Of a stretch of 63,253 nucleotides of DNA, positions 4,087-43,880 are shown piece by piece; the stretch's first letter is position 1, and every line of letters starts with the position of its first letter. The DNA lies in assembly GCA_949282745.1 (NCBI GenBank), contig CASDQM010000025.1, positions 1 through 63,253 on the forward strand, written 5' to 3'. The notes below the pieces were generated by a model, which saw nothing but the letters and a program-made list of their open reading frames with translations, made no database searches and was not told the origin of the DNA. The stretch comes from an uncultured Sutterella sp. (lineage in GTDB: Bacteria; Pseudomonadota; Gammaproteobacteria; Burkholderiales; Burkholderiaceae_F). The position numbers and the translations under genes are program-made.

Positions 4087-4104
4087 ATATTCTTCCTCTC
4101 ATCC

Positions 4105-4695
4105 ATGGCATCCATCGATTTCGACCGCGCCCTCTCCACGATTCTGTCCGAAGACGATCCGCTTCGCGTTCGCTTTGAGCGCTGGCGCCGCTTTCTCCTG
4201 CGCGAAGTCACCTTCTCGCATTCCGAGAGCGTCTGCCACACGACCGAACACGTCGAGCGCGTCCTGCTCTTCGCGCTTCTTCTCGGGCGAGAACTTGAGG
4301 TTCCTTCCGAAGACCTCGACGCGCTCGCGCTCTGCGCCGTCTTTCACGACACGCGCCGCCATGACGACGACCTTGACGTGGGGCACGGAGACCGGGCCGC
4401 GGCCTATTACCGCGAATACGAAACCGAACGCGGACGCACGCCCGACGACCGGGTCGCCCGCATCATTGCGCGCCACGACCGCCGGGATGAAGTTTCGGAA
4501 GAGAAATTCCGTGAAGAAGGCGCCGACGACGAGACCCTTCTTCTCTACCGCATCTTCAAGGACGCCGACGCGATCGACCGATACCGCTTCGGCCCCAAGG
4601 CCCTGAACGAGCGGTATCTTCGCACCTCCGCCGCACGAAGCCTCCTTCCCGTTCTTCGCCCCTTCGTTCTGCGGCTCACGGGCTACGAAGCCTGA
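4105..4695 (+). CDS. HD-domain phosphohydrolase
   Basis: A 196-residue soluble protein of the HD superfamily. An upstream His (HTTEHVERVL), the HD pair in CAVFHDTRRHDDD, and a later Asp (FKDADAIDRYR) supply the metal-binding residues of this fold. HD proteins hydrolyse phosphomonoester or phosphodiester bonds in nucleotides; nothing here fixes the substrate. The start at 4105 is chosen because the frame upstream overlaps the tRNA promoter and the tRNA. No strong ribosome-binding site is visible, and an alternative ATG at 4051 would add 18 residues. Confidence 0.8.
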   Translation: MASIDFDRALSTILSEDDPLRVRFERWRRFLLREVTFSHSESVCHTTEHVERVLLFALLLGRELEVPSEDLDALALCAVFHDTRRHDDDLDVGHGDRAAAYYREYETERGRTPDDRVARIIARHDRRDEVSEEKFREEGADDETLLLYRIFKDADAIDRYRFGPKALNERYLRTSAARSLLPVLRPFVLRLTGYEA

Positions 4696-7303: not shown

Positions 7304-7340
7304 TAAGCCGCACGCAACGCAACAGACACGGGAGTTACTC

Positions 7341-8015
7341 ATGTACATTTCGAAGATTGCCGAAGACATCCTCGCCGAACGTCTTCTTTCCTACGGTGCG
7401 GTCACCTTCTACAAGGACGCCCCCCTTCGCCTCAAGTCCGGCCTCGTCACGCCGATCTACGTCGACAACCGCAAGCTCACGGCTTGGCCCGACGCCTGGC
7501 ACGACGTGATCGAAACGATGGCCTCGCGCATCGACCAGTTGAAGCTCGACTTCGACGTCGTCGCGGGCGTTGAAGGCGCCGGCGTTTCGCACTCGGCCGC
7601 CCTCGCCTACCGTCTCTACAAGCCCTCGATCTTCGTGCGCGAATCCGCCAAGACCTACGGCAACAAGAGCCGCGTTGAAGGCGGCGACGTGCAGGGCAAG
7701 CGCGTCCTCATCATCGAAGACCACATCTCGACGGGTCTTTCGCTCCTCTCCGCCGTCGAAGCCCTCAAGGCCGAAGGCGCCTGCGTGACCGACTGCCTCG
7801 CCGTCACGAGCTTCGGCATGGAAGAAACGAAGAACCTCTTCCAGAAGCAGAACGTCGTCTGCCATGAAATGCTGCCCTTCTCGAAGGTGCTCGACAAGGC
7901 GATCGAACTCGGTCAGATCACCGAAGAAGACCGCGCCCGCCTCGACGACTGGCTCGCCAATCCGTGGACCTGGGCCGCTCGTCACGGTCTCGTTCCGCAG
8001 ACGAACGAAAACTGA
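7341..8015 (+). CDS. Orotate-phosphoribosyltransferase-like protein (PyrE family)
   Basis: A 224-residue type I phosphoribosyltransferase. The PRPP-binding motif VLIIEDHISTGLSLLSAV near residue 130 corresponds to the family pattern VVxDDxxTTG. The N-terminal LRLKSGLVTPIYVDNRKL and VAGVEGAGV match orotate phosphoribosyltransferases. The loop has E-D-H-I-S-T-G in place of the usual D-D, and the pairing with a CodA-like amidohydrolase rather than pyrimidine-synthesis genes suggests a salvage role. A strong terminator follows, closing a two-gene operon that begins at 6311. Confidence 0.82.
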   Translation: MYISKIAEDILAERLLSYGAVTFYKDAPLRLKSGLVTPIYVDNRKLTAWPDAWHDVIETMASRIDQLKLDFDVVAGVEGAGVSHSAALAYRLYKPSIFVRESAKTYGNKSRVEGGDVQGKRVLIIEDHISTGLSLLSAVEALKAEGACVTDCLAVTSFGMEETKNLFQKQNVVCHEMLPFSKVLDKAIELGQITEEDRARLDDWLANPWTWAARHGLVPQTNEN

Positions 8016-8037
8016 TCCCGAATTCCTTCGGAATCCG

Positions 8038-8070
8038 AACCCCGCGCGTTTTCGAACCCGCGGGGTTTTT
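8038..8070 (+). terminator. Intrinsic terminator of the amidohydrolase-PRT operon
   Basis: AACCCCGCG (8038-8046) pairs exactly with CGCGGGGTT (8059-8067), and the T-run continues to 8070. Confidence 0.85.
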
Positions 8071-8199
8071 GTTGCCCGGCGCTTTCGATTTCGCCTTTTC
8101 CGACGGGTGATCTTTCGGGTACGAAACGCCCTCGGCCCAAAAGCAAAGCCGCCGCCCGATGAAGAGCGACGGCTTCGAAGTGTTTGCGCCGGCCGAACC

Positions 8200-8799
8200 T
8201 TACTTGTTGAAGGCGGGCGAGGCGGCGCGCAGATAGACGTACATCGAATAGATCGTGAGGACCGCGGCGATCCAGATGAGGATCGTGCCGATGAAGGAGA
8301 CGGAGATCTTCACGCCTTCGACCGTGATCGGATCCCACCAGAGAAGCATCGGGATCGCGGTCATCTGGGCGATCGTCTTGATCTTGCCGAACCAGTTCAC
8401 CTTGACGCGTCCGGATTCGCCCACCTTCGCCATCCATTCGCGAAGGGCCGAAACCGTGATTTCGCGGCCGATGATGATGAAGGCGACGAGCATGTCGAGT
8501 CGTTCCAACCCCACGAGCGCGATGAGCGCCATCGAGACGATGAGCTTGTCCGCGACCGGATCGAGGAAGGCCCCCATGTCGGTCGCCCAACCTTCGTAGC
8601 GTCGGGCGAGATAGCCGTCGAGCGCGTCGGTGGTCGCCGCCACGACGAAGGTGATGCAGGCGATGACGTTGATCCAGTGCGCGTCGATGATTTTCGTCGG
8701 GACGTAGAAGACGCCGACGGCGATGGGAATCATGGCGATTCGGGCCCAAGTGAGAACCATCGGAACGTTGATGGAGACGGGCGGTTTCAAGCGGGGCAT
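8200..8799 (-). CDS. pgsA: CDP-diacylglycerol-glycerol-3-phosphate 3-phosphatidyltransferase
   Basis: A 199-residue inner-membrane enzyme that makes phosphatidylglycerol phosphate, the committed step to phosphatidylglycerol and cardiolipin. The CDP-alcohol phosphotransferase signature D-x2-D-G-x2-A-R-x8-G-x3-D-x3-D is complete: DALDGYLARRYEGWATDMG, then AFLDPVADKL (about residues 53-82). Several hydrophobic helices follow. It lies 39 bp downstream of uvrC on the same strand, the usual proteobacterial order uvrC-pgsA, so the two are probably cotranscribed. Confidence 0.93.
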   Translation of the reverse strand: MPRLKPPVSINVPMVLTWARIAMIPIAVGVFYVPTKIIDAHWINVIACITFVVAATTDALDGYLARRYEGWATDMGAFLDPVADKLIVSMALIALVGLERLDMLVAFIIIGREITVSALREWMAKVGESGRVKVNWFGKIKTIAQMTAIPMLLWWDPITVEGVKISVSFIGTILIWIAAVLTIYSMYVYLRAASPAFNK

Positions 8800-8838
8800 G
8801 ATGGATGAAAAAAGTTTGTGGGACGGGGTTTTGTAAGA

Positions 8839-10833
8839 TTACTCGATTTTCGGGGCCGCACCCTCGTGCAACTGGGCATAAATTCGTTCCGCGAGACTCC
8901 GGCTGATGCCTTCGCACTTGGCGATGTCTTCGGCGGAAGCGTTTTTGAGCTGCCGCATGCCGCCGAAGTGCGTCAAAAGCTTCGCACGGCGCTTGGGTCC
9001 GATCCCCTCGAGATCCTCGAGGCGCGAGGTGTTGCGGGTCTTCGCGCGTTTGGCGCGCATCCCCGTGATCGCGAATCGGTGCGCTTCGTCGCGGATTTCG
9101 GCGATGAGCATGAGAGCCTTCGAGAGGGACCCGAGAACGAGGGGTTCGCGCGCGACGCCGTCGATCTTCGGAAAGATCAGGGTTTCAAGCCCGGTCTTTC
9201 GGCCTTCGCCCTTGGCGACGCCGACGATCACGGACAAATCGAGTCCGAGTTCGGTGAAGACCTGACGGGCCATTTCGACCTGGCCACGTCCGCCGTCGAC
9301 GAGAACGACGTCGGGCAATTCCGCCTCTCCGCGCGTGACGGGGAGATAGCGGCGCTCGAGAACCTGCCGCATGGCGGCGTAGTCGTCGCCCGGCGTCACG
9401 TCGCGGATCGTAAAGCGCCGATAGAGGTTCGACTGCATGCGCCCTTCAAGGTAGACGACACAGCTCGCCTGCGTGGCTTCGCCCGCCGTGTGCGAAATGT
9501 CGAAGCATTCGACCCGGAACTTCATCGGATCGCCGTCCTTGGGTTCGATTTCGAGAACTTCGAGAAGATCCTTGAGGCGCGCCTCGCGGCTTCCCTCTTC
9601 CGAAATGTGGCGCGCAAGCGCAATCGACGCCCCCTGCACGCACATCTCCAACCAGCGCCTGCGCGTTTCGCGCGGCTCCGTGACGACGCTCACGCGCCGT
9701 CCGGCGCGCTCGGAAAGAAGCGCCGAGAGGCGTTCGGCCCAGTCCTTTTCGCCTTCAAAAGGCTCGGTGATGAGGACCGTCGGAATTTCCTGATCGCAGT
9801 AGTGCTGCGCGACGAAGGCTTCGAGGATTTCACCCTTTTCGGGCATGAGTTGCTCGCGAACGACGCCCTTCGGGAAGATCGGACGGTCGCCCAGGTGACG
9901 GCCCCCGCGCACCATGGCGAGGTTCACGCAGATCGTTCCGCCCGAGACCGCGACCGCCACGATGTCGGCATTCGTGTCGCCGCCCGTCGTTTCGATCGCC
10001 TGGCTCTGCTGCAGGGTCGTGAGCGCCGCGATGCGGTCGCGAAAGACGGCCGCGCGCTCGAACTCCCACTTTTCCGACGCCTGCCACATCTGCCGCTCGT
10101 ACTCTTCGACGACTTCGCGGGTGCGGCCTTCCAAAAAGGCGGCCGCGCGCTCGCAGTCGCGCGCGTAGTCTTCGCGCGAGATGAGTCCCACGCAGGGGGC
10201 CGTGCAGCGCCCGATCTGTCCCAAAAGACAGGCGCGGGTGCGGTTTTGGAAGACGGCGTTTTCGCAGGTCCGAAGCCCGAAGACCTTCTGCATGATCTGA
10301 ATCGCGTCGCGCACGGCGCCCGAGTTCGGATAGGGCCCGAAAAAGCGCGAGCGCCGGTCGACGCCGCCCCGGTAGTAGGAAAGACGCGGGAAGTCTTCGG
10401 GACCGAGCTTCACGTAGGGGTAGCTCTTGTCGTCGCGAAAGAGAATGTTGTACTTCGGGTGAAGCGACTTGATGAGATTGTTTTCGAGAAGCAGCGCTTC
10501 GGCTTCCGAGCGCGTCACGGTGGTTTCGAGCCTGGCGATCTGGCTCACCATGATGCGGATGCGCGGCGACAGATCCGACTTCTGAAAGTAGGAGCTCACG
10601 CGCTTTTTGAGGTCGCGCGCCTTCCCGACGTAGAGACAGCGTCCCTCCGCGTCGAAATAGCGGTAGCATCCCGGCAGATTCGGGAGCGTCCTCAGTTCCG
10701 CCTTCGCGTCGAAGGCCTTGACTTCGGGTTCGTTAGCCAACCCTTCTCCCGCCTCGTCTTCCGTTCGGTCGGGAGCGGGGCCGGAGGCCTCGGCCGTTTC
10801 GATTTTCTGTTCGTCGGTCTCAGTCATGCGCAT
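8839..10833 (-). CDS. uvrC: Excinuclease ABC subunit C
   Basis: A 664-residue nuclease subunit that makes both incisions in nucleotide excision repair. After an acidic, low-complexity N-terminal extension of about 45 residues comes the GIY-YIG domain ([11 protein letters not shown], then [18 protein letters not shown]), the zinc-type Cys cluster region, a UVR motif mid-protein ([20 protein letters not shown]), the RNase H-like second nuclease domain, and a C-terminal helix-hairpin-helix pair ([20 protein letters not shown]). All parts expected of UvrC are present. The start could also be the ATG at 10827; the difference is two residues. It is divergent from earP. Confidence 0.96.
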
Positions 10834-10909
10834 CTGGAAAGGACGGCGTCCCTGCGCGGACGCCCGAAACTCGGGTATTGTAGCGGCTCAAACTTCCAAA
10901 AGGACCGCC

Positions 10910-12010
10910 ATGCAGCCCCGATCCGTACAGATTTTCTGCCGCATCATCGACAATTTCGGCGATGCGGGCGTCACCCTGCGCGTTGCGCGCCGTTTTCTCT
11001 CGGAAGGCGTCGAGCCGCTTCTCATTTCGGACCACCTTGAAGTCCTCGCGAAACTTCTGCCGGGACTCGATTCCTCGGCGCCGCGCTCCGTGGTCGACGG
11101 CATCGGCGTCGCCGACTGGGACGCCTTCGCGGCCGACCCCGACGCCCCCGCGGACCTGGTCTTGGAAACCTTCGGCTGCCGCCTTCCCGAGAAATTCGAG
11201 GAGCGCATGGCCGAGACGCCCCCTAAGCTCACGATGAACCTCGACTATCTGAGCGCTGAAGACTGGGTGGAATCCTGCCACGGCGTCTGGGGCCTGCACC
11301 CGACGCTCCCCATCCGAAAGCTCTGGTACTTCCCGGGCTTCACCGACCGCACGGGCGGGCTCACGATCGAGCCCGACAACGAAGACCGCCGCGCGGCCTT
11401 CGATCGGGAAGCGTTTCTGCGCTCGCTCGGGGTTGAACACCCTGAGCGCCCGACGCTCTACTTCTTCCTCTATCCCACGAACGACGTGGCCGCCTGGGCG
11501 CGGGCGCTCCTTTCTATCGAAACGCCTTTGAACGTTCTCCTTGCGCCGGGCGCGGGCACGGATGCGCTCCGAGATGCCCTGTCCGCCGCACCGCACCCGC
11601 ACCGGGTGATTGCGACGCCCTTTGTCGAGCAGCCGCTCTTTGACCGCTATCTCTGGGCCGCGGACGGCGTCATCATCCGCGGTGAAGACAGCTTCGTGCG
11701 CGCCCAGCTCTCGGGGACGCCCCTTTTCTGGGCCACCTATCCGACCGAAGACAAGGCGCACGAAATCAAGTTCGAGGCCTGGGCCGCGCGCGTGAACGCG
11801 GTCTTGGAAAACAAGGACGTGGCCGAAAGCCTGGCCTTGAACCGCGCCTGGCTCGAAGGCAAGGCCGCGGACCGGGATCTTGCGGCCTGGGTCGGAAAGC
11901 TTCCCGATCTTCGCCGGGCCTGGGCGCCCTGGCGTGCGTCCCTTTTCGCCCGCAAAGAGCTCGTGCGCGGCATGCTCGAGCGCTATGAAGTAGAGACGAA
12001 GGGAGCGTGA
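10910..12010 (+). CDS. earP: EF-P arginine rhamnosyltransferase
   Basis: A 366-residue GT-B type glycosyltransferase that transfers rhamnose from dTDP-rhamnose to Arg32 of elongation factor P. This is inferred from family features (N-terminal IFCRIIDNFGDAGVTLRVAR, central LYFFLYPTND, C-terminal GEDSFVRAQLSGTPLFW) and from the efp gene 2.1 kb downstream, which encodes Arg at residue 32. The start at 10910 follows AAAAGGACC and is preferred over the longer frame that overlaps uvrC. In most genomes earP and efp are adjacent; here two genes separate them. An inverted repeat at 12012-12085 follows the stop. Confidence 0.93.
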   Translation: MQPRSVQIFCRIIDNFGDAGVTLRVARRFLSEGVEPLLISDHLEVLAKLLPGLDSSAPRSVVDGIGVADWDAFAADPDAPADLVLETFGCRLPEKFEERMAETPPKLTMNLDYLSAEDWVESCHGVWGLHPTLPIRKLWYFPGFTDRTGGLTIEPDNEDRRAAFDREAFLRSLGVEHPERPTLYFFLYPTNDVAAWARALLSIETPLNVLLAPGAGTDALRDALSAAPHPHRVIATPFVEQPLFDRYLWAADGVIIRGEDSFVRAQLSGTPLFWATYPTEDKAHEIKFEAWAARVNAVLENKDVAESLALNRAWLEGKAADRDLAAWVGKLPDLRRAWAPWRASLFARKELVRGMLERYEVETKGA

Positions 12011-27407: not shown

Positions 27408-27500
27408 TCAGCGGGTGAAGCAGTCGAGCCACCGCGCGGGAATCGGCGTTTCGAGTTCCCGCACGATCGACATCGGGTATCCGCCCGTGTCCGGGACACG
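27408..27500 (-). pseudogene. Remnant of the 3' end of the DUF3427 helicase gene
   Basis: Read on the minus strand, about 29 codons and a stop encode [17 protein letters not shown] and flanking residues. 24 of 29 residues match the C-terminus of the intact helicase at 34425. The similarity stops abruptly at the stop codon. It lies only about 27 bp beyond the cas12c stop, so it marks the downstream border of the cas module. Confidence 0.8.
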
Positions 27501-27505
27501 GGCGG
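27481..27505 (-). terminator. Perfect 12-bp palindrome just after cas12c
   Basis: CCGCCCGTGTCC (27481-27492) and GGACACGGGCGG (27494-27505) are exact reverse complements with one base between. It lies inside the upstream part of the helicase remnant, 22 bp past the cas12c stop. It may stop or protect the cas12c transcript; there is no T-run. Confidence 0.45.
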
Positions 27506-27526
27506 ATTGTCCATGCGGAACCTCCC

Positions 27527-30500
27527 TCACTTGCGGATCAGGCTCTCCAGAAACCGACGTCCGATGTTGACCGCCGCATTGATGTCCGCGTGCTGCTCCT
27601 TGTTGAGGCAAGGGCAATCGGTGAAGACGCAGAAATAGCGGCTCTGTGACGTATCCCTGCTCTGAAGGCTCTTGGGTTGACGACGCATGTTTTCGGCGAC
27701 GGCCCGACGGAAATCGTCGAGCGAAAGCTTGACGCCGGCGCGCGACTCCGTCCACGGAGCCCGCTCGTTGCGGCGTCGGGCCTTTTTGCTTTGCTCTTCC
27801 GAGGGCCGCTTGTAGAGGCGCAGCGTCTTGCCGAAGAGCGTGACTTCGCCGTTCTCGTCGAGCGTCACACTCTTGATCTTTTCGTCTCGAGCCTTTTCGA
27901 TGAGTTCCATCGCGTTGCCGCCGCACTGCGAGCAGATGCGGCTCGTCCACTTGGCGTTCACGGCCGCCCCTGGCGTCACCCGCAGCGTTCGGTAGAACTT
28001 TCCGTCGTTCTCCAGGATCTCGCCCTTCTTTGCCTTGGCGGCATAGCTTTCCGGAACCTCAACCCAAAGATCGGGGAGAACCCAGTCGGAGGTTCCGCAC
28101 CACCAGGAAGTCCGTTCGAGACTGTGCGTCGGAATGCGGTCGTCCAGGAATCGGGCGTTGACCATCTTGTAGACGAGTTCCAGCTGCTTGCCGCCGTTTG
28201 CGAGATTGCTCACCTGACGCTCGAGCACCGGGATGGCGCGGTAGCGGCACATGAGCCCGGCGATGGCGCCGCACACGTCGCCTGCCACGTTTTCACGCAG
28301 AGTGAACATAGTGGAGTCAAAGCGCTGACTGAACTTTTGCACGGACTGCTTGCCCTTTCGGTAGGAGTGCACGCGGGCGATGAGCCGGCGAATGGACGGA
28401 ATGTTCACGAACCCCTGAGCAATCGGCTGCGCTCCCGCTTTCCCGGCGTCTTCCAATCGGAACACGGCGAAGGCGAATCCCTTTTCCCCTTGGTCGATGG
28501 CAACGATTCTTCGGAAGAGTGAAGATTTTCTCTCGGATTTTTCTTCATCCCCGGTTGTTTCCGTCGGCGTCGTAATCGGAACGGAAAGTGAAAACTGCAA
28601 TCTTGTGGGAATGAAGTTCGCACGACCGTCTTTCATTTCCTGAAGCACTTCCTGATCGGCGAGCAAAGTCATGTCGCCCACCACCTCACCGGGGTCGAGC
28701 AACAGACGGTTGAGTCGTTCCTTGTGCGTGCTCGGCCCCACAAGGCGCGCCAAACGCAGGGCCTCCACCTTGCCCAAAGCGATCTCAGTGCCGTACTTGC
28801 CGTTCTTTTCCAGGATCAGAACGTCCCGGCTTTCCACTTTCCGTCCTTCCTGCGTCGCGCCGTCGGGATTTCGCACGGAAACCCGATAGCACCAGTCGTG
28901 CGGCAACTGATGAAAGAGTTCCCGCAAGGCTTTCTGCAAGATCGGATCCGTCATTCGTCCCCAGAGCGCGGCAGCGCGGCGGAAGGTTTCGGCAACCTCC
29001 ACCTCCCCGGCCGAAAGCCGCACCAACACGTCGTTCTCGAAAATCGGCGTCCAAGCGGGAGAAACTTCGTATCGCGCAGGCATCGACCAGCTCGTTTCCT
29101 TCGGAACGTAAACGAGCGCCGTGTTGCCGACAAAGGAGAACTTGGTGCGAAGGAAAAAGCGCTCGCGCCGCAACGTGATCAGGCAGCCGCTCAACAGACT
29201 GACGTAGACGTTGAAAGCCTTGGCAAGTACAGAAGGCGGCACTTCGGCTTGCCGGAGCTGCAGCTTCAGACCTTCGGAGACGCTTTCGCGCGCGGTCTCG
29301 TCGTCGAGACGGAGAGCGGCGACTGCCGAAGGTACGTTCTTGGCGAGCGCACCGATCCGCATGATCATCAGGAGGTTTTCGAGACGCATGAACGTCTCGC
29401 CCGCTTCCGAGAGCGGCGCATAGGCCCCCTTCTTTTCCTTCACAAAGGCGAGCAGTTCGTTCCAAACGGCGTCCGCTCGCTCCGTCAACCCGTCGGTCAA
29501 TTTGTAACCTTCATGACGACGGTTGCTGAAGGGCGAAACGTAGAGGCTCCCAAGGCGATTGCTGAAGAACTTGTTGAAGTCCTTGCGCTCGGCAAAGACG
29601 TTTTCCTTGGCGAACCACTGTCGGACATCCTCGGCGCAGGCGTCGGAACGGTCACGCACGACACGTGCGACTCGTTGCAACACAAGACGCAAAGCGAGTT
29701 CCCGACCGTTGTACTTGCCGGGAGCGCGCCGGTCGGCGCGCTGTTGCTCCGTTTCGGCGAGCTTCTCAAGAACCTTGCCTTCGGCGCCCGTTTTGGTCGC
29801 CCACTCCATCAGATCGTCAAAATGCGTCGCTTCGCCCCGGGCCACGCTCTCATAACGGTCAAGAATCGCGTCGAGTTCCTCTTGAGCGGGCGGCACGCCG
29901 CCCGACATGCCATTGAGTTTCGGAAGGCGAATAAGCTTCTCCCACGGAGCAAACTCACCCTTGACATCGGACCACAGAGTATTCCATCGGGAGGCTTTGT
30001 CATCCTCGGCTTGTCGGAGTGCATTGACGATTTGCTCCTTGATGGCGAAGAGGCGGTTGACGATTCGACTGCATTCCTCGATCGCCGCAACGTCGCTCGC
30101 CACTTGAGAGGGATCGGCACCAAGGAGATGTTCCACGGCCGTCTTCGCGCGATCACGTTCCCGAGCGAAACTTCGGCACAAAATTTCCGCTTCTTCCCGA
30201 CGGCAGTCGGTCGTCGCGAGAAAATCCTCGCTATCTCGAACGAGGTCGGGCAAACGAAGTTCGTCCGTCAAATCGCCAAGAAGTCCCTGCAGCTCTTCAA
30301 GACGGTTGAGGTAGTTTGCCGTCCAGCTGTTGATGCGGCCGGCAAAGGCGCTTCGGAAATCGTGGTATCCGAGGGGAGTCCCGCCTTTCTTCAGGAAAAA
30401 ACTTTGCTTCGGGGTAGTCCGAGCCGCATTTTGAATTTGGACTACGCGGAATGCTTGGTCTTCCGGCACGTGAAAGAGACGGCACAGTTCTTCGGCACCG

Positions 30501-31414
30501 GTTTCCGCAAAGAGTTCCAATCCCCGATTGAAAAGCCAGCTCAATCCCGAAGCGTTGGTCGTCGTGAGGTGTTGTTCGACAAACGGGCGTCTTTCTTCTC
30601 CGACGCTTTCAGGGTAAGAGAGCAGCGTCGACACCACGGCGTACGGTGCGGCCTCGGTTCCGATTTTCCGGACGTCAACAAAAGGCACCAGAGGATCGAA
30701 AGCGACGGTCGACCCTTTGGGGAGTTTCACCGAAGCCTTCCTCGCCATGTCCGCCAAGGAAGGAAACTCACCGAACCCACGAAGCGCCTCGTCCACCGCC
30801 TCGCTCGAGCCGAGCAGATCGCTCGTGAGCTCGTTCCAGGAGCGGTAGCGCGAAGTCAGTTCACGGGCCATCTCCTCAAACAACTGATCCACAAAGGTTT
30901 CGTTTGCCCCTTTGGGGAGACTTTTTCCGACAAGCGTCTGTCTGTATTCCTTAACCATGACTTCCGGAACGAAGCGATTGTCCTTGTTCCCTCGGGCGCG
31001 CACCTCCGTTTGCAATCGCTTGAAGAGCGTCTTGACCGTGAAGTTCGGCAAGGGAGCACCCGCGGCCTCGGTCAGGGCTTGTTGGAAAGCGTCTTCGTCG
31101 TAGGCGGAGCGGTTCGCGAAAATCTCCGCCTTCGCGCCGTCCGGAAAGATCCGAAAACCCGAAAGAACGACGGCAAAGAGAAAACCGGTGAGCGTACCGT
31201 TTCCGCAACCTTCCACCACGTCATAGAGTTTCCGACACTCGTCAAACGTGGCAGCATCCTCGCGAAGCGGACAACCCGCGGGAAGGTCGAGCTTGAACTT
31301 AGTCGTCAGCATGGTGTCCGCCGGTTTCGTTCCCACCGAAGCAAGACGTCGACGGAAATTCTTTAGAACTTGGCCCGAGGGCAAATCACGCAGTTTCAGG
31401 ACTTGATGGGACAT
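27527..31414 (-). CDS. cas12c: Type V-C CRISPR effector Cas12c
   Basis: A 1295-residue RNA-guided effector, within the usual 1200-1300-residue range for Cas12c. The split RuvC domain is complete: D974 in RRIVAIDQGEKGFAFAVF, E1065 in IPVLERQVSNL and D1277 in HADINAAVNIGRRF. A zinc-ribbon pair (CSQCGG near residue 1160 and CVFTDCPC near 1265) lies between motifs II and III. Landmarks SGLSWLFNRGLELF, INSWTANYLNRL, GMSGGVPPAQEE, LGSLYVSPFSNRRH and RENVAGDVCG match my recollection of the Oleiphilus Cas12c2 sequence at equivalent positions. Published Cas12c enzymes process their own pre-crRNA with the RuvC site and bind, rather than cut, DNA; this is inferred here. It is 137 bp downstream of cas1 on the same strand. 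No strong ribosome-binding site precedes the ATG. Type V-D (Cas12d) is much less likely. Confidence 0.95.
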   Translation of the reverse strand: MSHQVLKLRDLPSGQVLKNFRRRLASVGTKPADTMLTTKFKLDLPAGCPLREDAATFDECRKLYDVVEGCGNGTLTGFLFAVVLSGFRIFPDGAKAEIFANRSAYDEDAFQQALTEAAGAPLPNFTVKTLFKRLQTEVRARGNKDNRFVPEVMVKEYRQTLVGKSLPKGANETFVDQLFEEMARELTSRYRSWNELTSDLLGSSEAVDEALRGFGEFPSLADMARKASVKLPKGSTVAFDPLVPFVDVRKIGTEAAPYAVVSTLLSYPESVGEERRPFVEQHLTTTNASGLSWLFNRGLELFAETGAEELCRLFHVPEDQAFRVVQIQNAARTTPKQSFFLKKGGTPLGYHDFRSAFAGRINSWTANYLNRLEELQGLLGDLTDELRLPDLVRDSEDFLATTDCRREEAEILCRSFARERDRAKTAVEHLLGADPSQVASDVAAIEECSRIVNRLFAIKEQIVNALRQAEDDKASRWNTLWSDVKGEFAPWEKLIRLPKLNGMSGGVPPAQEELDAILDRYESVARGEATHFDDLMEWATKTGAEGKVLEKLAETEQQRADRRAPGKYNGRELALRLVLQRVARVVRDRSDACAEDVRQWFAKENVFAERKDFNKFFSNRLGSLYVSPFSNRRHEGYKLTDGLTERADAVWNELLAFVKEKKGAYAPLSEAGETFMRLENLLMIMRIGALAKNVPSAVAALRLDDETARESVSEGLKLQLRQAEVPPSVLAKAFNVYVSLLSGCLITLRRERFFLRTKFSFVGNTALVYVPKETSWSMPARYEVSPAWTPIFENDVLVRLSAGEVEVAETFRRAAALWGRMTDPILQKALRELFHQLPHDWCYRVSVRNPDGATQEGRKVESRDVLILEKNGKYGTEIALGKVEALRLARLVGPSTHKERLNRLLLDPGEVVGDMTLLADQEVLQEMKDGRANFIPTRLQFSLSVPITTPTETTGDEEKSERKSSLFRRIVAIDQGEKGFAFAVFRLEDAGKAGAQPIAQGFVNIPSIRRLIARVHSYRKGKQSVQKFSQRFDSTMFTLRENVAGDVCGAIAGLMCRYRAIPVLERQVSNLANGGKQLELVYKMVNARFLDDRIPTHSLERTSWWCGTSDWVLPDLWVEVPESYAAKAKKGEILENDGKFYRTLRVTPGAAVNAKWTSRICSQCGGNAMELIEKARDEKIKSVTLDENGEVTLFGKTLRLYKRPSEEQSKKARRRNERAPWTESRAGVKLSLDDFRRAVAENMRRQPKSLQSRDTSQSRYFCVFTDCPCLNKEQHADINAAVNIGRRFLESLIRK

Positions 31415-31441
31415 TTTCGGAAAACGATTGAGGTTGAATTT

Positions 31442-31553
31442 GCTACACTACGTTCAAACTCCTTCCGGCTTTCGGACCGTCTGCTTGCAGACCTCCTTAC
31501 CTTGGCCGGAGGGACATCGCCGGGGGTCGATGCCTGTCATGTACCCCCATTTC
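31442..31553 (+). ncRNA. Candidate scoutRNA between cas12c and cas1
   Basis: The 137-bp interval between the two cas genes has an extended -10 element on the plus strand, TGCTACACT (31441-31449). Downstream are a stem closing a branched structure (31461-31469 with 31505-31512), a hairpin GTCTGC/GCAGAC (31479-31492), and an 11-pair stem with a 2x2 internal loop (31522-31532 with 31538-31548). The terminal loop of that stem is CCTGT (31533-31537), complementary to ACAGG in the CRISPR repeat; pairing can extend to CCTGTCA. TTCAAA (31453-31458) is also complementary to the repeat end. Cas12c systems need a scoutRNA with a short, about five-base complementarity to the repeat. Boundaries and expression are inferred; the 5' end could start a few bases after 31453. 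Confidence 0.55.
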
Positions 31554-32595
31554 ACACACTTCTCGGCTTGGTTTCCCCGGGTAGACGGTACCCGACTTTC
31601 GGCGGTCTTCCGCCTTTTTTTGCGCCCTCCGTCGGGATCACCAAGCGCACGCTTTCGTCAAGAAGGTACGCGCGCAAGGCGAGCACCACGCCGTGAAGCA
31701 GGTTCTTGCGCCGTACGTATTGACGAGTTTCCGGCACGTAGACCACGACGTCAAGCGCTTCCTTGAGCGTATTGAGTGTCGCCGACACAAGCTTCTTCTC
31801 GCTCTCCTTGTCGTCGACGGAGGCATAGGCCGCGGCCGCGCTCTCCTCAATGATGTAGCGGTAAGGCTCCATCAGGTCGTACACCAGAGACGGATACCCC
31901 GTGGGCTCATGAAGGTAGCCGTGACAGGCCGAGAGCTTGTGAAAGAGAATCCAGCGCAGGATGACGCCGTAGAGAAACTTGGAGCCCGCGTCGAGCGCAG
32001 CCGACAATGGACTGTTGTCGCGTCGGGACGCCTCCACCTCAAGCTTGTCGAACCATGCTGCCCAATAGCGGGCGGAGGTTTTCGCCTCGATCTGTCGCAC
32101 GGCATCCACGGTCTTCGCTCGGGCGAGTTCCTTGTAGAACATATCGGGCACCGAAATCAACGATTCAAATTTGCGGAGACGGTACCGAATCAGCGTCTTG
32201 GCGACGTACGTCTTCTTTTGCGCGTGCTCTCGCACCAGAATCTGCCGCGTCAGGACATTCTCGTTGTCTGAATGAACGGAGGGGAAGAAAACATAGGGAT
32301 CCGTCAGGTTGCGCCGATGGATCATGAAGGGGATCTTGTTCTGCGCAAGCGCGTCCAGAAACTCCAACGGCAATTCCCCGCAGGCGCCGTAGAACATGAT
32401 GAAGTCCACCTTCTTCAGGTCGATACTCAACTCGCCCCCGTTGTACGCGATGGTCCAGGTCTTCGTGCGGGACACCTTTTCGACCGCGGAGAAGTACGGA
32501 ATCCAGAGACTCACCTTCGCGTTGCGGGCATTGCTCTTCCAGGTCCAGATAAAATCGGGATGTTGGTTCGGGTCGACGATCATGGGATTCTCCAT
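31552..32595 (-). CDS. cas1: CRISPR integrase Cas1 (type V-C, without Cas2)
   Basis: A 347-residue Cas1. The catalytic triad is visible as E170 (QIEAKTSARYW), H229 (LHEPTGYPS) and E243 (VYDLMEPYR), so the integrase should be active. No cas2 or cas4 is found within the locus, which is the arrangement of two-protein type V-C systems, where Cas1 alone has been reported to act as a mini-integrase for short spacers. The very short spacers here (17-19 nt) agree. It is oriented away from the array leader and followed by cas12c. A second, truncated copy of its first 65 codons lies at 33687-33890. Confidence 0.93.
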   Translation of the reverse strand: MENPMIVDPNQHPDFIWTWKSNARNAKVSLWIPYFSAVEKVSRTKTWTIAYNGGELSIDLKKVDFIMFYGACGELPLEFLDALAQNKIPFMIHRRNLTDPYVFFPSVHSDNENVLTRQILVREHAQKKTYVAKTLIRYRLRKFESLISVPDMFYKELARAKTVDAVRQIEAKTSARYWAAWFDKLEVEASRRDNSPLSAALDAGSKFLYGVILRWILFHKLSACHGYLHEPTGYPSLVYDLMEPYRYIIEESAAAAYASVDDKESEKKLVSATLNTLKEALDVVVYVPETRQYVRRKNLLHGVVLALRAYLLDESVRLVIPTEGAKKGGRPPKVGYRLPGETKPRSV

Positions 32596-32697
32596 GTCGA
32601 AATGGGAAACTTCCTGAAGAAAGACTAATTTTCCTCACTAGTTTACAAGCATTTCACTCCGATTTTTGATTGCACCACAAATGATTTGTGGTAATCA
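32596..32697 (+). promoter_or_regulatory. Leader of CRISPR array 1 with a conserved 19-bp palindrome
   Basis: An A/T-rich sequence between cas1 and repeat 1. The last 57 bp strongly resemble the leader of array 2, and the 28 bp ending just before the repeat are nearly identical. ACCACAAATGATTTGTGGT (32674-32692), a perfect 9+1+9 palindrome, ends five bases before the first repeat. It could be the Cas1 integration site or part of the array promoter; it also serves as the cas1 upstream region. Confidence 0.65.
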
Positions 32698-32931
32698 CCC
32701 AGAAGTGACAGGGTTTTGAAGGTTGGGGCGAGATTCACGGTCCCAGAAGTGACAGGGTTTTGAAGGTAAGCATATGGCGGATGCCCAGAAGTGACAGGGT
32801 TTTGAAGGATCGGAAACTGTCGCTTTCCCAGAAGTGACAGGGTTTTGAAGGTCGAAGCTGTAACCGCCATCCCAGAAGTGACAGGGTTTTGAAGGCCCCG
32901 CGCTGATTCAATGCCCAAAGGTGACAGAAGG
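32698..32931 (+). CRISPR. CRISPR array 1 (five repeats plus one degenerate)
   Basis: A 25-nt repeat beginning CCCAGAAGTGACAGG and ending TGAAGG occurs at 32698, 32742, 32784, 32827 and 32871. A degenerate copy at 32914-32931 (CCCAAAGGTGACAG then AAGG, with an internal deletion) follows. Spacers are 19, 17, 18, 19 and 18 nt. The leader lies on the cas1 side and the degenerate repeat at the far end, so the array is read on the plus strand with spacers 3' of the repeats, divergent from cas1. Spacer lengths of 17-19 nt are typical of type V-C. Confidence 0.97.
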
Positions 32932-33006
32932 CCGCGAGGATTCAAAAGAACATCCCATACTGCCTCTTGCCATCTCACCTTTTCGCCAAACAACCACGCG
33001 GAGGTT

Positions 33007-33606
33007 CTACCGCATGAATCGATCGAGCCACCGCGCGGGAATCGGCGTTTCGAGTTCCCACACGATCGACATCGGGCACTCGCCCGTGTCCGAGACGTGA
33101 GCCAAGCGTCCGAGGTAGACAAAAGGCTGCGTCACCCCCTTTTCGTTCTTCTTTTCGCGAACGAACAAATGCGCCTGCGGGGCGTCTTCCTTTCGAAAGT
33201 CCACCGCACGGTAGCGGCGAACCCTAGCACTCCCCGAACGGGTCGTCGACTGCGTCTGCCAGTGAAAGCGGGTCGCGTTCATGGCGTAATCGTCGTAGCG
33301 GCGGCTTAGCGCAAAGTGTCGCTCCTCCTTGTCGATCGTGACGAAAAAAGAGGTCCGCGTGCCGATCCTTCAGGTACATGACGCCCCCGCGGAAATTGGC
33401 GGCCTGTTCATAGCCGAAGGCGGCCAAGGTTTCGCGCGCCGAATAGGAGGCGTGCAATTCCAACGGCACGTCATCGGGCACGGAGGCGGGCGGACTCAGG
33501 AAGTCGACGTCTTTGAGCAGCGCTTCGAGAAGTCCCGTCACGGCCTTTCGCCACCCTGCATTGGCAAGAAGTACCTCGTAGAAGGCCTTCGCAACAGGGA
33601 GATTGC
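33007..33606 (-). pseudogene. Fragment of the DUF3427 helicase gene (C-terminal 200 codons, frameshifted)
   Basis: The minus strand encodes a close copy of the last 200 residues of the helicase at 34425-37661, including its normal stop (TAG at 33007-33009). The reading frame is broken by a six-A run (33344-33349) where the intact gene has five. The homology begins abruptly near 33606. There is no start or promoter, so it is a relic of the tandem duplication. Confidence 0.9.
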
Positions 33607-33697
33607 CGCTGCCGCTCGATCTAGGCAAAAGAGAAGAGAAATCAATTGACTCGTTGCTTGACGAGAAAACCCACAAGGATGTCTTGTTACTTGATGC
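33607..33697. other. Junction sequence between the two duplicated units
   Basis: About 90 bp that match neither the helicase nor cas1. It contains CTCGT..ACGAG, a short inverted repeat, and is A-rich. It is the join between the helicase fragment of copy 1 and the cas1 fragment of copy 2; its origin is unknown. Confidence 0.5.
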
Positions 33698-33890
33698 CTT
33701 CCACCTTCGTCAAGTCAACGCTCAGCTCGCCCCCGTTGTACGCGATGGTCCAGGTCTTCGTGCGGGGCAACTTTTCGACCGCAAAGAAGTATGGGATCCA
33801 CAGGCTCACCTTCGCGTTGCGGGCATTGCCCTTCCTAGCCAAGATAAAATCAAGATATTGGTTCGGTTTGACGATCATGGGGTTTACCAT
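33687..33890 (-). pseudogene. Truncated copy of cas1 (first 65 codons)
   Basis: The minus strand encodes MVNPMIVKPNQYLDFI and WIPYFFAVEKLPRTKTWTIA, matching the N-terminus of the intact Cas1 with scattered substitutions. Similarity ends near 33698 and the frame stops at 33687. None of the catalytic residues (E170, H229, E243 in the full protein) is included, so it cannot be a working integrase. Confidence 0.9.
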
Positions 33891-33992
33891 GTCGAAATGA
33901 GAAACTTCATGAAGAAAGGCTGACTTTCCTCACCCATTTACAGGCTTCTCAGTCCGAATTTTTATTGCACCACAAATGATTTGTGGTAATCT
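33891..33992 (+). promoter_or_regulatory. Leader of CRISPR array 2 with the same palindrome
   Basis: Matches the leader of array 1. ACCACAAATGATTTGTGGT occurs at 33969-33987, again ending five bases before the first repeat. Retention of this palindrome while the sequence further upstream has drifted suggests that it is under selection. Confidence 0.65.
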
Positions 33993-34316
33993 CCCAGAAG
34001 TGACAGGGTTTTGAAGGAAACCACCCATACCTAACCCAGAAGTGACAGGGTTTTGAAGGCAGACTGAAAGACAAAGACCCAGAAGTGACAGGGTTTTGAA
34101 GGGCCCGGTAGCGTCTCCCACCCAGAAGTGACAGGGTTTTGAAGGACAACCTGAACCTAGGAGCCCAGAAGTGACAGGGTTTTGAAGGAAGAATGGCGGA
34201 TGCAAGCCCAGAAGTGACAGGGTATTGAAGGTGAGTGATCGAGACTATGCCCAGAAGTGACAGGGTTTTGAAGGTGAAGCCGAAGATTGAACCCAGAAGT
34301 GACAGGGTTTTGAAGG
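33993..34316 (+). CRISPR. CRISPR array 2 (eight repeats)
   Basis: The same 25-nt repeat as array 1 occurs at 33993, 34035, 34078, 34121, 34164, 34207, 34250 and 34292; the copy at 34207 has one T-to-A change. The seven spacers are 17, 18, 18, 18, 18, 18 and 17 nt, all different from those of array 1. After the last repeat, a vestige (ACAGGAGGTCAC near 34348) corresponds to the degenerate repeat of array 1. The leader is on the low-coordinate side, so reading is on the plus strand, toward the helicase 3' end. Confidence 0.97.
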
Positions 34317-34424
34317 CTACGTGGGGCGGTCTAAATCAGAACAAACAGGAGGTCACAAGGATTCAAAAGAACATCCTTCACGGCCTCTTGTCATATCAGT
34401 CGTTCCACCAACCGCGCAACGCTT

Positions 34425-37400
34425 CTACCGCGTGAATCGGTCGAGCCACCGCGCCGGAATCGGCGTTTCGAGTTCCCACACGATCGACATCGGGCACTCG
34501 CCCGTGTCTGACACGTGCGCCAGTCGTCCCAAGTACACGAAGGGCTGCGTCACGCCCTTTTCGTTCTTCTTTTCGCGAACGAACAGATGCGCCTGCGGCG
34601 CGTCTTCCTTTCGAAAGTCCACCGCGCGGTAGCGCCGTCCCTTGTCGCTCTCCGAGCGGGTGGTCGACTGCGTCTGCCAGTGAAAGCGGGTCGCGTTCAT
34701 GGCGTAGTCGTCGTACCGGCGGCTGAGCGCAAAGTGTCGCTCCTCCTTGTCGATCGTGACGAAAAAGAGGTCCGCGCGACGGTCCTTCAGAAACATGACG
34801 CCTTCGCGGAAATTGGCGGCCTGCTCGTAGCCGAAGGCGGCCAAGGCTTCGCGCGCCGAATAGGACGCGTGAAGTTCGAGCGGCACGTCTTTCGGGACCG
34901 ATGCGGGCGGGCTCAGGAAGTCGACGTCTTCAAGCAGCGCTTCCAGGAGCCCCGTCACGGCCTTCCGCCACCCCGCATTTTGGAGAAGCACCTCGTAGAA
35001 GGCCTTCGCGGCCGGAAGATTCCCGCCGAACTTTCGCACCTCCGCCTCGATCCAGGCGAAGGTGAAGAGCACCCAGTTGGCCCGTTGTCTCGAAGAGAAG
35101 GTCTCAAAGGGCGCCCCTTCGCGCAGATCAGTCAGAAGCTCCGCAATCGACGCGTAGCCGTTTTTGCGGCAGACTCGCAAAAACGCCTTCTGCGAAAGAC
35201 GGAAGGCTTGCGGAACCTCCACGGCGGCCCCGCGGCCGGTACCGAGCTTGGCGAGAACGTCTTCGAAAAAGAGGTCGTCCCTCCCCTTTTCGATGCCGGA
35301 CACCCAAAGCGGCCAGTCCCGCACGCGCAGATTCTGCGAGCGCAGAAAGTCCGCGAACTTCGGTTCACCCTGCTGATGCGAAAGCCACTCGCCCGCCACT
35401 TCGAGCTCCCGCCCCTTGAGCCGACGGTGCGCCTTGATATTGGCGAGAACGTCCTCCATGGCCTGCTTTTCCAGGGTCAACGTGCAGCCGAGCGGGAGGA
35501 GCGTCGAATCGGTTCCCTCCACGAGATCCACGACGTTCGCGGTCGCCGCCCGCGTGAGGGCGCGAAGGCGCGCTTCAAACGAGAATTCCTTTCTCGCCGA
35601 CCCCACGAAGTCGAGGACTGTTAGTCGCAGTTTGTTCGTGCACTTTCGCAGGCCGCGCCCCAACTGCTGCAGGAAGATCGTCACCGACTCGGTAGGGCGC
35701 AGGAAGAGAACCGTGTTCACTTCGGGGATGTCGACGCCCTCGTTGTAGACGTCCACGGTGCAGAGGAAACGAAGTTCCCCGCTCACGAGTTTTCTCGGGG
35801 CGTTGCGGCGTTCTTCCGCGGGCGTTTCCCCGTCGATCGCCGCTGCGGGGATGCCCGCTTCGCGCATCACCTTCGCGACGTGCGCCGCGTGGCGGCGCCC
35901 CGCACAGAAGACGATGCCCCGCACGTCGGAGAGGTCCGGCAGATACCGCTTCACGGCCGAGAGCACCGCGCGGTCGCGGTCCCGAGCCGAGCTTCCCTCC
36001 GTGTAGAGGTCTTCGAGTTCGGAGGCAAGGTAACTTCCGCGCGTCCACTTGAGGCCCGCCAGTGACACCGGGTCCGTCACCATCAGGTAGTCAAAGGGCA
36101 CCAGAAGCTGCCGGTCGATCGCGTCGCCCAAGCCGAGTTCGGCCGTGATGCGTCCGCCGAAGCGCTCGAGCACGTCCCGGCCGTCTCCGCGCCAGGGCGT
36201 GGCGGTGAGACCGAGAAGGACCTTCGGGTCAAGCGTGTCGAGCAACGCGCGGTAGCTCTGTGCCGCCGCATGGTGGAATTCGTCGACGACCACGTATTCG
36301 AAATGTTCCGGCGGATAGAAATGCGCGAGATCACGGCTTGCGGCCGTCTGCACCGAGAGAAAGACGTGGCGGTGCTCCTTCGGGGTTTCGCGCCCCGTGA
36401 AGAGCTCGCCGAAATTCATGTCGTTGAGCACATAGCGGAAGGCGTTTCTCGCCTGAATGAGGATTTCCTCGCGGTGCGCGACGAAAAGGAGGTTCTCGCG
36501 GCGTCCGAGCTTTCTCGCCCGCTCCCGATAGTCGAAGGCCGCGATCATGGTCTTTCCCGTCCCCGTCGCCGCGACGACGAGCGATCGGGTTTCCCCGTGC
36601 AGGGTTCTCGCGGCGTCAAGCCGTTCGAGAATGGCCTTCTGGAAGGGATAGGGTTCGAGCTCGATCCCGAAGGTCGAGAGAGGCGTAGCCGTCGAGAGGG
36701 ACGCACCCGACTCACCGCGCCTCGCCTCTTGGATCGCTTCGCGAAGCTGCGTTTCGTCCCTTACCGGGTCGAACCGCTTGAAGCGCTCCGCATCGGTCAC
36801 GTAGGCGTCGAAAATCGTCTTCATGCGCTCGAGAAGCGCCGCGTCGGACGTTTCCGTCACCTTGACGGTCCACTCGAGACCGTAGCTCAGCGCCGCCTTC
36901 GAGAGATTCGCGCTTCCCGCATAGGCGGTCGAGAGTCCGTTCGGACGGTGAAAGAGATAGGACTTGGCGTGGTGACGCGTCGCGCCCGTGTCGTAGGCGA
37001 CGTAGATTTCGGCGTTCGGCAGGTTCGAGAGCCAGAGCACCGCTTCCGGATCGGTCGCACCCACGTAGGTGGTCGTGACGACGCGCAGTCGCCCGCCGCG
37101 TTCGGCAAAGCGCTCGAGCACCGACATCATGGGCCGAAGCCCCGACATCTTCACGAAGGACACCAGCCAGTCGACGCTTTCTGCCGTCTCGGTTTCGCGC
37201 CGCAGTTCGTCAAGGAGCGCGGGCTCCCCGCGGGCACCCGTGAGAAGCGTCGTTTGCGAGAAGGACGTCTCGGGACGCACCGCGTCGGCCCATCGGGGTT
37301 CGCCCGGGGCGGGATTCATGCGGTCGGCGGCGAGGAGCACGGAAAGGGGATCCGCAAAGAGAGACGCGCCGCCGGAGTTTCGGTCGATTTCTCCGAGCAC

Positions 37401-42790: not shown

Positions 42791-43624
42791 TTAGAAGGCG
42801 GGCACCACGGCGCCCTTGTACTGTTCTTCAAGGAACTTCTTGAGTTCGGGCGACGAGAGCGCGGCCTTCAACTTCTGGAATTCGGCGCGGTTTTCTTCAC
42901 CCGTGCGCACGGCCACGACGTTCGCATAGGGCGAATCCTTGGCTTCGATCGCGATGGCGTCCTTCAAGGGATTCAGGTTGGCGCCGAGCGCGTAGTTGGA
43001 GTTGATGACGGCGAGGTCGACGTCGTCGAGGGCGCGCGGGAGCTGAGCAGATTCGATTTCGATGAACTTCACCTTCTTCGGATTTTCCGCAACGTCGCCC
43101 ACCGTGGCGAGGATGCCGGCTTCGGGCTTCAGCTTGATGAGGCCGGCCGTTTCGAGAACCTTGAGCGCGCGGCCGCCGTTCGTGGGGTCGTTCGGGATCG
43201 CGACCTGAGCGCCTTCGGCGACGTCGGCGATGCCCTTCACCTTACGGGAATAGACGCCCATCGGTTCGATGTGCACGGCCGTGAGGCTCGAGAGCTTCAG
43301 GCCGCGGTCGGCGCAGAATTCGTCGAGATAGGGCTTGTGCTGGAAGAAGTTCGCGTCGATTTCCTTGTCGGCGAGCGAAAGGTTCGGCTTGATGTAGTCG
43401 GTGAATTCCATCACCTTGAGCGTCACGCCTTCCTTGGCGAGCTGCGGGGTGATGAACTTCAGAATGTCGGCGTGCGGCACGGGGCTCGCACCGACGGTGA
43501 TCGTGACGGCGGCGTCCTTGGCGGCGGCCGCAGGTTGGGCGGGTTCGGTCTTTTCACCGCAGCCGGCAAGGGTGAGCGTGAGGCCGCAGGCGACGAGGAC
43601 GGAGGCAAGCGCGTTGATTCTCAT
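42791..43624 (-). CDS. metQ: D-methionine-binding lipoprotein MetQ
   Basis: A 277-residue solute-binding protein of the NlpA/MetQ family. The signal peptide ends in a lipobox (LTLTLAGCGEK), so Cys21 is probably lipidated. TVGASPVPHADIL, DYIKPNLSLADKEIDANFFQ and AIPNDPTNGGRALKVLE are family hallmarks. The start at 43624 is preferred over a longer unsupported frame. Partner genes metN (ATPase) and metI (permease) are not adjacent, so it is an orphan here and must work with a transporter encoded elsewhere. It is preceded by a leader of about 220 nt. Confidence 0.92.
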   Translation of the reverse strand: MRINALASVLVACGLTLTLAGCGEKTEPAQPAAAAKDAAVTITVGASPVPHADILKFITPQLAKEGVTLKVMEFTDYIKPNLSLADKEIDANFFQHKPYLDEFCADRGLKLSSLTAVHIEPMGVYSRKVKGIADVAEGAQVAIPNDPTNGGRALKVLETAGLIKLKPEAGILATVGDVAENPKKVKFIEIESAQLPRALDDVDLAVINSNYALGANLNPLKDAIAIEAKDSPYANVVAVRTGEENRAEFQKLKAALSSPELKKFLEEQYKGAVVPAF

Positions 43625-43880
43625 GATGTTTTGTCCTGTTGTGGAGCCTTCGGATCGGGGGAACGAGGCCCTGCAGTGCTTGTGAGGAGGAGGTCCCGAA
43701 ATCCGAAGGCGTTTTGTTGTGTCGAGATATCGGGATTCCGACGAAGATCGGCCGAGAATTGGGGGAGAGCGGAGAGGATCCGTCCGGCCGCCGCGTCTTT
43801 TCTGGCGGGAATCCACGCTTGGGGCCCCGCGGGCCCTGGCGATTGGGTAAGTGTAGCAAGCCAAGCCCTCCGTGGAGGGC
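43625..43880 (-). promoter_or_regulatory. metQ upstream region: promoter and structured leader
   Basis: On the minus strand an extended -10, TGCTACACT (43850-43858, TACACT core at 43850-43855), lies under a GCCCTCC/GGAGGGC palindrome (43865-43880) at the -35 position. The transcript would have a leader of about 220 nt containing perfect 10-bp arms GCCTTCGGAT/ATCCGAAGGC (43701-43710 and 43646-43655). I recognise no known SAM or methionine riboswitch class. Confidence 0.4.

Follow-up and report, generated by a model that had tools for sequence, protein, structure and literature searches.

The window, by which we mean the whole stretch of DNA that was analysed (63,253 nucleotides from an uncultured Sutterella sp.), contains a type V-C CRISPR-Cas locus made up of cas12c, cas1 and two arrays with the identical repeat CCCAGAAGTGACAGGGTTTTGAAGG:

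27527-31414, minus strand: cas12c, 1295 aa; NCBIfam NF033950 770.9 bits (cut-off 250), PADLOC Cas12c 927.2 bits
31552-32595, minus strand: cas1, 347 aa; TIGR00287 71.9 bits (cut-off 71.7), PADLOC Cas1
32698-32895, plus strand: CRISPR array 1, five repeats CCCAGAAGTGACAGGGTTTTGAAGG, spacers of 17-19 nt; a decayed copy near 32914
33993-34316, plus strand: CRISPR array 2, eight copies of repeat CCCAGAAGTGACAGGGTTTTGAAGG, with a single change in one copy

The strand of the arrays was deduced from the decayed last repeat and the side of the leader. There are two arrays because of a duplication in window 32394-35026: the 5' end of cas1 and the leader recur (32394-32693 and 33689-33988, 85%), as do the stretches 3' of the arrays (32991-33290 and 34409-34708, 89%). 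A 101-nt piece is found again at 27412-27512, beyond cas12c. The solved effector nearest to the window protein is Cas12c1 (PDB 7vyx, 698 bits, against 428 bits for Cas12c2, 7v93).

Helper RNAs for such effectors are already known from a few Cas12c systems: the tracrRNA (scoutRNA) of Cas12c2 is present in the cryo-EM structures 7v93 and 7v94 (Kurihara et al. 2022; PMC9522604), and that of Cas12c1 from Parasutterella muris in PDB 7vyx (Zhang et al. 2022, as cited in PMC11246509). The scoutRNA of Cas12d (Harrington et al. 2020, as named in PMC9067536) is likewise an RNA of short complementarity serving a type V effector, although that effector belongs to another family. Mapping the Cas12c2 scaffold, as given in the described portion of PMC9522604, onto the interval between cas12c and cas1 assigns the following features, together with a putative promoter and a terminator-like hairpin:

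31442-31450, plus strand: extended -10-like element TGCTACACT, a promoter predicted from sequence, with an RNA start at about 31453-31458
31456-31459, plus strand: PK1 site AAAC, pairs with repeat 16-19 (GTTT); counterpart of Cas12c2 R:AR-1
31460-31470, plus strand: stem 1, 5' strand TCCTTCCGGCT, pairs with 31504-31514
31479-31492, plus strand: stem 2, hairpin GTCTGC-TT-GCAGAC, from sequence and fold (the fold closes the loop slightly differently)
31500-31503, plus strand: dock CCTT, pairs with repeat 22-25 (AAGG, its last four bases); counterpart of Cas12c2 R:AR-2 / PK2
31504-31514, plus strand: stem 1, 3' strand GGCCGGAGGGA, pairs with 31460-31470
31515-31519, plus strand: stem 3, 5' strand CATCG, pairs with 31528-31532
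31522-31527, plus strand: 3' helix (S2p), 5' strand GGGGGT, the outer stem of a hairpin described in an earlier, sequence-only reading
31528-31532, plus strand: stem 3, 3' strand CGATG, pairs with 31515-31519
31533-31540, plus strand: anti-repeat 3 CCTGTCAT, pairs with repeat 8-15 and includes CCTGT; counterpart of Cas12c2 R:AR-3 / stem 4
31543-31548, plus strand: 3' helix (S2p), 3' strand ACCCCC, pairs with 31522-31527
31601-31621, plus strand: intrinsic-terminator-like hairpin GGCGG-TCTT-CCGCC followed by seven T, antisense to the 3' end of cas1

The interval adjoins a genuine cas12c and CRISPR arrays, and its RNA can form 4 + 4 + 8 pairs with the repeat at three separate sites, one pair being G-U. 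Stem 1 encloses stem 2 and the dock, and stem 3 adjoins the third anti-repeat, as in the scaffold that the relevant part of PMC9522604 describes. The order of elements is that of the Cas12c2 tracrRNA in the same portion of that paper (PK1 site, stem 1, stem 2, dock, stem 1, stem 3, third anti-repeat), and so, nearly, are the repeat registers: -4 to -1 in both, -18 to -12 in Cas12c2 and -18 to -11 in the window, -11 to -8 in Cas12c2 and -10 to -7 in the window. Both also share a short guide, 17 nt in Cas12c2 and spacers of 17-19 nt in the window.

The sequence-only reading had proposed this interval as a candidate scoutRNA with an extended -10 box and a compact fold on the plus strand. The box is there (TGCTACACT, 31442-31450), without a -35: a sigma-70 scan of 31380-31700 returned no promoter having one. 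The compact fold also holds, as the minimum-energy structure of 31453-31553 on the plus strand (-41.5 kcal/mol, z = -3.9) is equalled by none of 200 shuffles. Complementarity to the repeat within the window sequence alone is not significant and lies within chance. Of 1000 dinucleotide shuffles of 31442-31553, 139 have a match of at least seven bases, which agrees with the earlier caution that a seven-base match could arise by chance, and 485 have one of at least six; for 31442-31622 the figures are 217 and 654 of 1000. A further seven-base match, CACTTCT (31557-31563) with repeat 4-10, is absent from the list of matches of at least six bases in the closest relative, and is probably due to chance. 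No Rfam family matches the RNA interval at its gathering score; across the window, the matches reaching that score are tRNA and a lysine riboswitch (RF00168, 83.4 bits, 60212-60415, minus strand) only.

The argument is carried by relatives. Searches with NF033950 found genomes over the cut-off in the host family (5 of 67, the window's own genome included), the order (4/399), the class (2/369), the families of G818 (5/56), G819 (1/288) and G675 (2/3), and G818 and G819 themselves (2/2), these genome sets overlapping; a scan of genome contigs for Cas12c gave six loci, and no Cas12c relative was found in viral contigs or plasmids. The RNA adjoins cas12c in seven other loci, in one of which Cas12c is 85% identical to that of the window and in six 37-48%. 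The Cas12c loci gathered come from Sutterella sp. (L012/L013), Mesosutterella porci (L009/L015), Parasutterella (L010/L018), Turicimonas (L011/L016), Succinivibrionaceae (L014), Mailhella (L017) and the family of G818 (L075 to L078), among others, and the main counts rest on eight: the window, L012, L009, L010, L011, L014, L017 and L075. L076-L078 enter only the 11-row alignment and the covariance model and terminator filter built from the same 11 loci, with L077 and L078 also in the count of -10-like elements, while L048-L051, L074 and L079 were left out of the pairing tests. In the Cas12c tree the window pairs with L012, and the remaining six lineages of the eight-locus group are long and mutually unresolved; because of this, shared descent should explain little of the covariation, except between the window and L012. 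The Parasutterella protein (L010) matches Cas12c1 (7vyx) at 920 bits. L076-L078 form a separate branch, roughly equidistant from Cas12c1 and Cas12c2. We considered it as Cas12c2-like and then rejected that name: L078 scores 272 bits against 7vyx (Cas12c1) and 241 bits against 7v93 (Cas12c2). A -10-like hexamer with at least four of six matches lies within the last 18 nt before PK1, at -12 to -15, in 9 of 11 loci, a raw count without a null; the element is weak, with 3/6 matches each, in L017 and L050.

The helices of the window RNA are conserved as helices. With hand-placed segments in the eight loci, stem 1 pairs in 77 of 88 cells with 7 of its 11 pairs changed on both sides, stem 3 in 40/40 cells with 3 of 5 pairs so changed, and the 3' helix in 48/48 cells with all six pairs changed on both sides, which makes 16 of 22 for these three together. 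When the 3' letters were redealt, none of 5000 shuffles equalled the observed pairing, and this held for each of the three. The same picture comes from an unguided MAFFT alignment of 11 loci: 79.0% of cells are paired, as against 34.5-49.1% with the partners slid, and 21 of 28 pairs change on both sides. By helix, the paired cells over 11 loci amount to 74.4% in stem 1, 78.8% in stem 2 (6/6 pairs with a both-side change) and 81.8% in the 3' helix. None of 500 shuffles of this alignment equals four of the five measures, and seven equal the fifth (further pair types). RNAalifold, run on the eight loci, recovers stems 1, 2 and 3 unaided, the L011 row having ended before the end of the 3' helix.

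The sites that pair with the repeat change along with it. We placed them by structure, with segment boundaries chosen after looking: anti-repeat 3 is the 8 nt after stem 3, and the dock and PK1 are the 4 nt that precede the 3' strand and the 5' strand of stem 1, respectively, PK1 being one base further in L011, where it pairs with repeat 17-20. Across the eight loci, anti-repeat 3 is paired in 62 of 64 cells with 4 of 8 pairs changed on both sides (equalled in 0 of 5000 shuffles of the repeat letters), PK1 in 32/32 cells, allowing G-U, with 3 of 4 pairs changed on both sides (1/5000), one of the three depending on the shifted L011 alone, and the dock in 32/32 cells with one of its four pairs varying (85/5000): CCTT occurs with AAGG in three loci and CCTC with GAGG in five. 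The variants of anti-repeat 3 are CCTGTCAT, CCTGTCAC, CCTATCAA (four loci), CACATCAA and CTCATCAC, and each fits its own repeat, the last (that of L017) at six of eight positions, where 6/8 pairs form. The complementarity is thereby kept when the repeat differs, which is the check that the sequence-only reading had named: the site reads CCTGTCA(T/C), CCTATCAA, CACATCAA or CTCATC(AC). That reading had not contained the dock CCTT (31500-31503) with repeat 22-25, a third pairing site. It had matched TTCAAA (31453-31458) to the end of the repeat, and this match to repeat 18-23 does exist, but it was rejected as a conserved pairing: the sites adjoining stem 1 pair with 16-19 elsewhere (17-20 in L011), and upstream it is AAAC (31456-31459) with 16-19 that is conserved.

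To exchange repeats among loci we excluded L012 as a near-duplicate of the window. Among the 5040 assignments of repeats to the remaining seven loci, the true one alone reaches the observed 107 of 112 Watson-Crick pairs; forcing the L011 repeat site into register gives 106/112, still 1/5040, and leaving out L014 gives 91 of 96 pairs, reached by the true assignment alone (1/720). For anti-repeat 3 alone, 24 of 5040 assignments equal the observed value, and each of these only exchanges repeats among the four loci whose sites are identical. As judged from these sequence comparisons, the pairing with the repeat in the eight loci is far beyond chance.

The Succinivibrionaceae locus (L014) allowed a prediction, as no array had been seen beforehand on its contig. 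From the L014 RNA and the RTT common to its relatives we derived the repeat TTGATAGG-RTT-NNN-GAGG, and the predicted core has ten exact copies in that genome: nine on another contig, spaced 43-44 nt, and the tenth at the very end of the cas12c contig. Allowing two mismatches, the pattern has 21 matches against 6 for the reversed control, and the actual repeat is CCCAGACTTGATAGGGTTTATGAGG. The prediction is not fully independent, as the same repeat core had already been seen in three relatives that share the anti-repeat.

Because place and fold are the same in the relatives and the anti-repeat sites co-vary with each locus's repeat, we conclude that 31453 to about 31548 on the plus strand very probably (about 0.95) encodes the tracrRNA (scoutRNA) of this type V-C CRISPR-Cas12c system. 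The proposal of a scoutRNA here, and the covariation of anti-repeat sites and helices in related Cas12c loci on which it was to be judged, are thus both supported by the comparison of sequences.

We considered whether the structure could instead be a cis-acting element of the minus-strand cas1-cas12c messenger, a 5' leader of cas12c, with no separate RNA. The interval does sit between two minus-strand genes, its minus strand folds too (z -2.3, 3 of 200 shuffles as good), and stem pairings alone do not specify a strand. However, G-U cells exceed A-C cells by 14 to 3 in the three helices when read on the plus strand, which is why that strand is favoured, and complementarity to the transcribed repeat exists on the plus strand only, given the array strand deduced above. 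In addition, a similar RNA identified by eye at the L050 locus (genome G280) lies downstream of cas12c and in the same orientation; the cas12c and cas1 matches there end about 27 nt apart. We regard a leader element as very improbable. The same applies to a plus-strand RNA that regulates cas1 or cas12c by antisense action and matches the repeat only as a by-product. Such an RNA would be antisense to the 3' end of cas1 if transcribed through to the terminator-like hairpin at 31601-31621, but pairing with cas1 does not require three sites that co-vary with the repeat, and in the window the conserved part (31456-31548) overlaps neither gene.

The terminator-like hairpin, lying antisense within cas1, bears on the 3' end of the tracrRNA and gives one of two candidates for it: from sequence, the mature RNA possibly ends at about 31548-31555 or at 31621, and a primary transcript may reach to about 31621. 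One such hairpin was found, where shuffles give a mean of 0.5 (sd 0.7). The filter's top hairpin is at this place in cas1 in 6 of 11 loci and elsewhere or absent in 5 of 11, being absent altogether in L010 and L014. On the coding strand, the same DNA (window 31590-31625) specifies the Cas1 C-terminal residues KKGGRPPK, the antisense of which is the terminator-like hairpin with its T run. That this tail doubles as a terminator was a candidate we rejected: L074, with convergent cas1 and cas12c, also encodes a GRPPK tail, and a Cas1 protein motif accounts for the conservation of the tail at least as well.

The 3' helix is where the window RNA and its relatives depart from the Cas12c2 sgRNA as described in PMC9522604: they have a downstream strand that pairs with the stem-3 loop, beyond the point where that sgRNA ends. 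The sequence-only reading had drawn this region as a stem of 11 pairs (31522-31532 with 31538-31548) displaying the loop CCTGT. A hairpin with the 2x2 internal loop is indeed present, but with nine pairs (6 + 3), of which the outer six are the conserved 3' helix; the inner three (31530-31532 with 31538-31540) had to be rejected as a conserved element, as they are complete in the window only and the seven relatives keep one or two each (two in L012, the nearest). CCTGT is complementary to repeat 11-15 as described, and the match extends as CCTGTCA (31533-31539) to repeat 9-15, but it is not a simple loop: it is part of the 8-nt anti-repeat at 31533-31540, which forms the last loop of a likely pseudoknot between interleaved helices.

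Stem 3 and the 3' helix interleave, with 0 nt between the 5' strand of the 3' helix and the 3' strand of stem 3 in 8/8 loci, a first loop of 1-3 nt and a last loop of 10-11 nt in all eight, the latter containing the third anti-repeat. Loops of 1-3, 0 and 10-11 nt are usual lengths for an H-type pseudoknot, and these helix and loop lengths suggest that stem 3 and the 3' helix likely form one. An 8-nt duplex within a 10-11 nt loop may be sterically tight. Shuffling the 3' tail against the stem-3 loop is uninformative in the loci with GGGGG/CCCCC runs, where 10521 (window), 9103 (L009) and 12664 (L014) of 20000 shuffles are as good, and informative in L010 (2050), L011 (1470), L017 (324) and L075 (297 of 20000); it is the covariation that carries the argument for the 3' helix.

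Given that the RNA is a tracrRNA, the 3' helix (31522-31527 with 31543-31548) could still be merely a terminator or a hairpin protecting the 3' end, with no pseudoknot. In the Mailhella locus (L017) it is directly followed by TTTTTTG, which resembles an intrinsic terminator, and L009-L011 are T-rich after it. Its stability also points this way, with -8.8 kcal/mol for the 3' helix alone and -3.4 for stem 3 in the window, as does the 3' domain folded on its own, which gives the 3' helix in seven of eight loci and stem 3 in L075. Yet no T run follows the helix in the window, L012, L014 or L075, and a simple hairpin leaves aside that stem 3 is equally conserved (40/40 cells), that no base separates the interleaved strands in any of the eight loci, and that the loop lengths suit an H-type pseudoknot. 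We therefore consider the simple hairpin possible and rather unlikely, and the pseudoknot the better reading.

A broader form of the pseudoknot reading has, in our estimate, about even odds: that a conserved H-type pseudoknot, built from stem 3 and the 3' helix, is present in full-length Cas12c tracrRNAs and has the anti-repeat for repeat 8-15 as its last loop, and that this could act as a gate, with the third anti-repeat kept ready, or else masked, as long as crRNA and Cas12c are absent. The published Cas12c2 sgRNA, as far as the portion of PMC9522604 used here describes it, has a 71-nt tracr part ending at the third anti-repeat, and its stem-3 loop is not resolved. We infer that this sgRNA ends before the second strand of a 3' helix would come, and the absent strand would explain the disordered loop. 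In the parts of PMC9522604, PMC9067536 and PMC11246509 compared, no description of a 3' helix was found, and the pseudoknot may be new to the literature.

The sequence comparison shows three anti-repeat sites in the RNA, which pair with crRNA repeat 16-19, 22-25 and 8-15; they are framed by stems 1, 2 and 3 and by the additional 3' helix, which joins the stem-3 loop to the 3' tail. By analogy with Cas12c2, as described in PMC9522604, tracrRNA and crRNA would meet at a junction built from three short repeat:anti-repeat duplexes; Cas12c would bind this scaffold, its RuvC site would cut the pre-crRNA at the boundary of spacer and downstream repeat, and the product would then be used by Cas12c for target DNA binding. 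The helix and loop lengths suggest that the pseudoknot would present the third anti-repeat to the crRNA and shield the 3' end.

The comparison thus provides an annotated, comparison-backed partner for guide RNA in the Cas12c of a Sutterella-like bacterium and in its relatives, and the three-duplex scaffold of one cryo-EM study gains evolutionary support. It also yields a rule for deriving the repeat core from the RNA, which succeeded in the single case tried. The part deserving specialist attention is the conserved 3' helix with its likely pseudoknot: this 3' element lies beyond the end of the described Cas12c2 sgRNA and may matter for stability or activity.

The covariance model of the RNA scores 54.6-114.8 bits in 11 loci, all of them loci from which it was built, and finds a single place in the window's own genome. 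It has no match in L048, L050, L051 and L079 and weak ones only in L049 and L074, the latter containing matches to its own repeat. Within the window, a weak match at 43623-43730 on the minus strand (17.8 bits, E 0.001 in the window) is mostly one long hairpin, located in the upstream portion of a reading frame that codes for an NlpA lipoprotein domain; it was not returned by the search of the own genome with the model and is probably a chance match.

In L049, a Cas12c-like protein (6752-10597, genome G329, 410.6 bits to NF033950) has no cas1 match and no CRISPR array in the 18 kb examined, and is possibly a Cas12c functioning without a nearby array. Just downstream of its gene, at 10688-10801, the RNA model has its weak hit (12.8 bits, E 0.26), in a stretch that folds no better than shuffles (z 0.36).

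The L050 RNA identified by eye (4100-4240, minus strand) was left out of the pairing counts and of the unguided-alignment counts. Repeat-like copies adjoin it, and the parts that fit are the dock, CCAA with the repeat end TTGG, PK1 with one G-U, stem 1 at 8/9, a four-pair stem 3 and a five-pair 3' helix; its third anti-repeat, assigned by eye to repeat 7-13, fits poorly in the three registers scored. At L075 (6740-12242, genome G832), a transposase gene (9786-11633, minus strand; Pfam DDE_Tnp_1, 43.3 bits) splits cas12c in two, and cas1, the array and the tracrRNA are still present.
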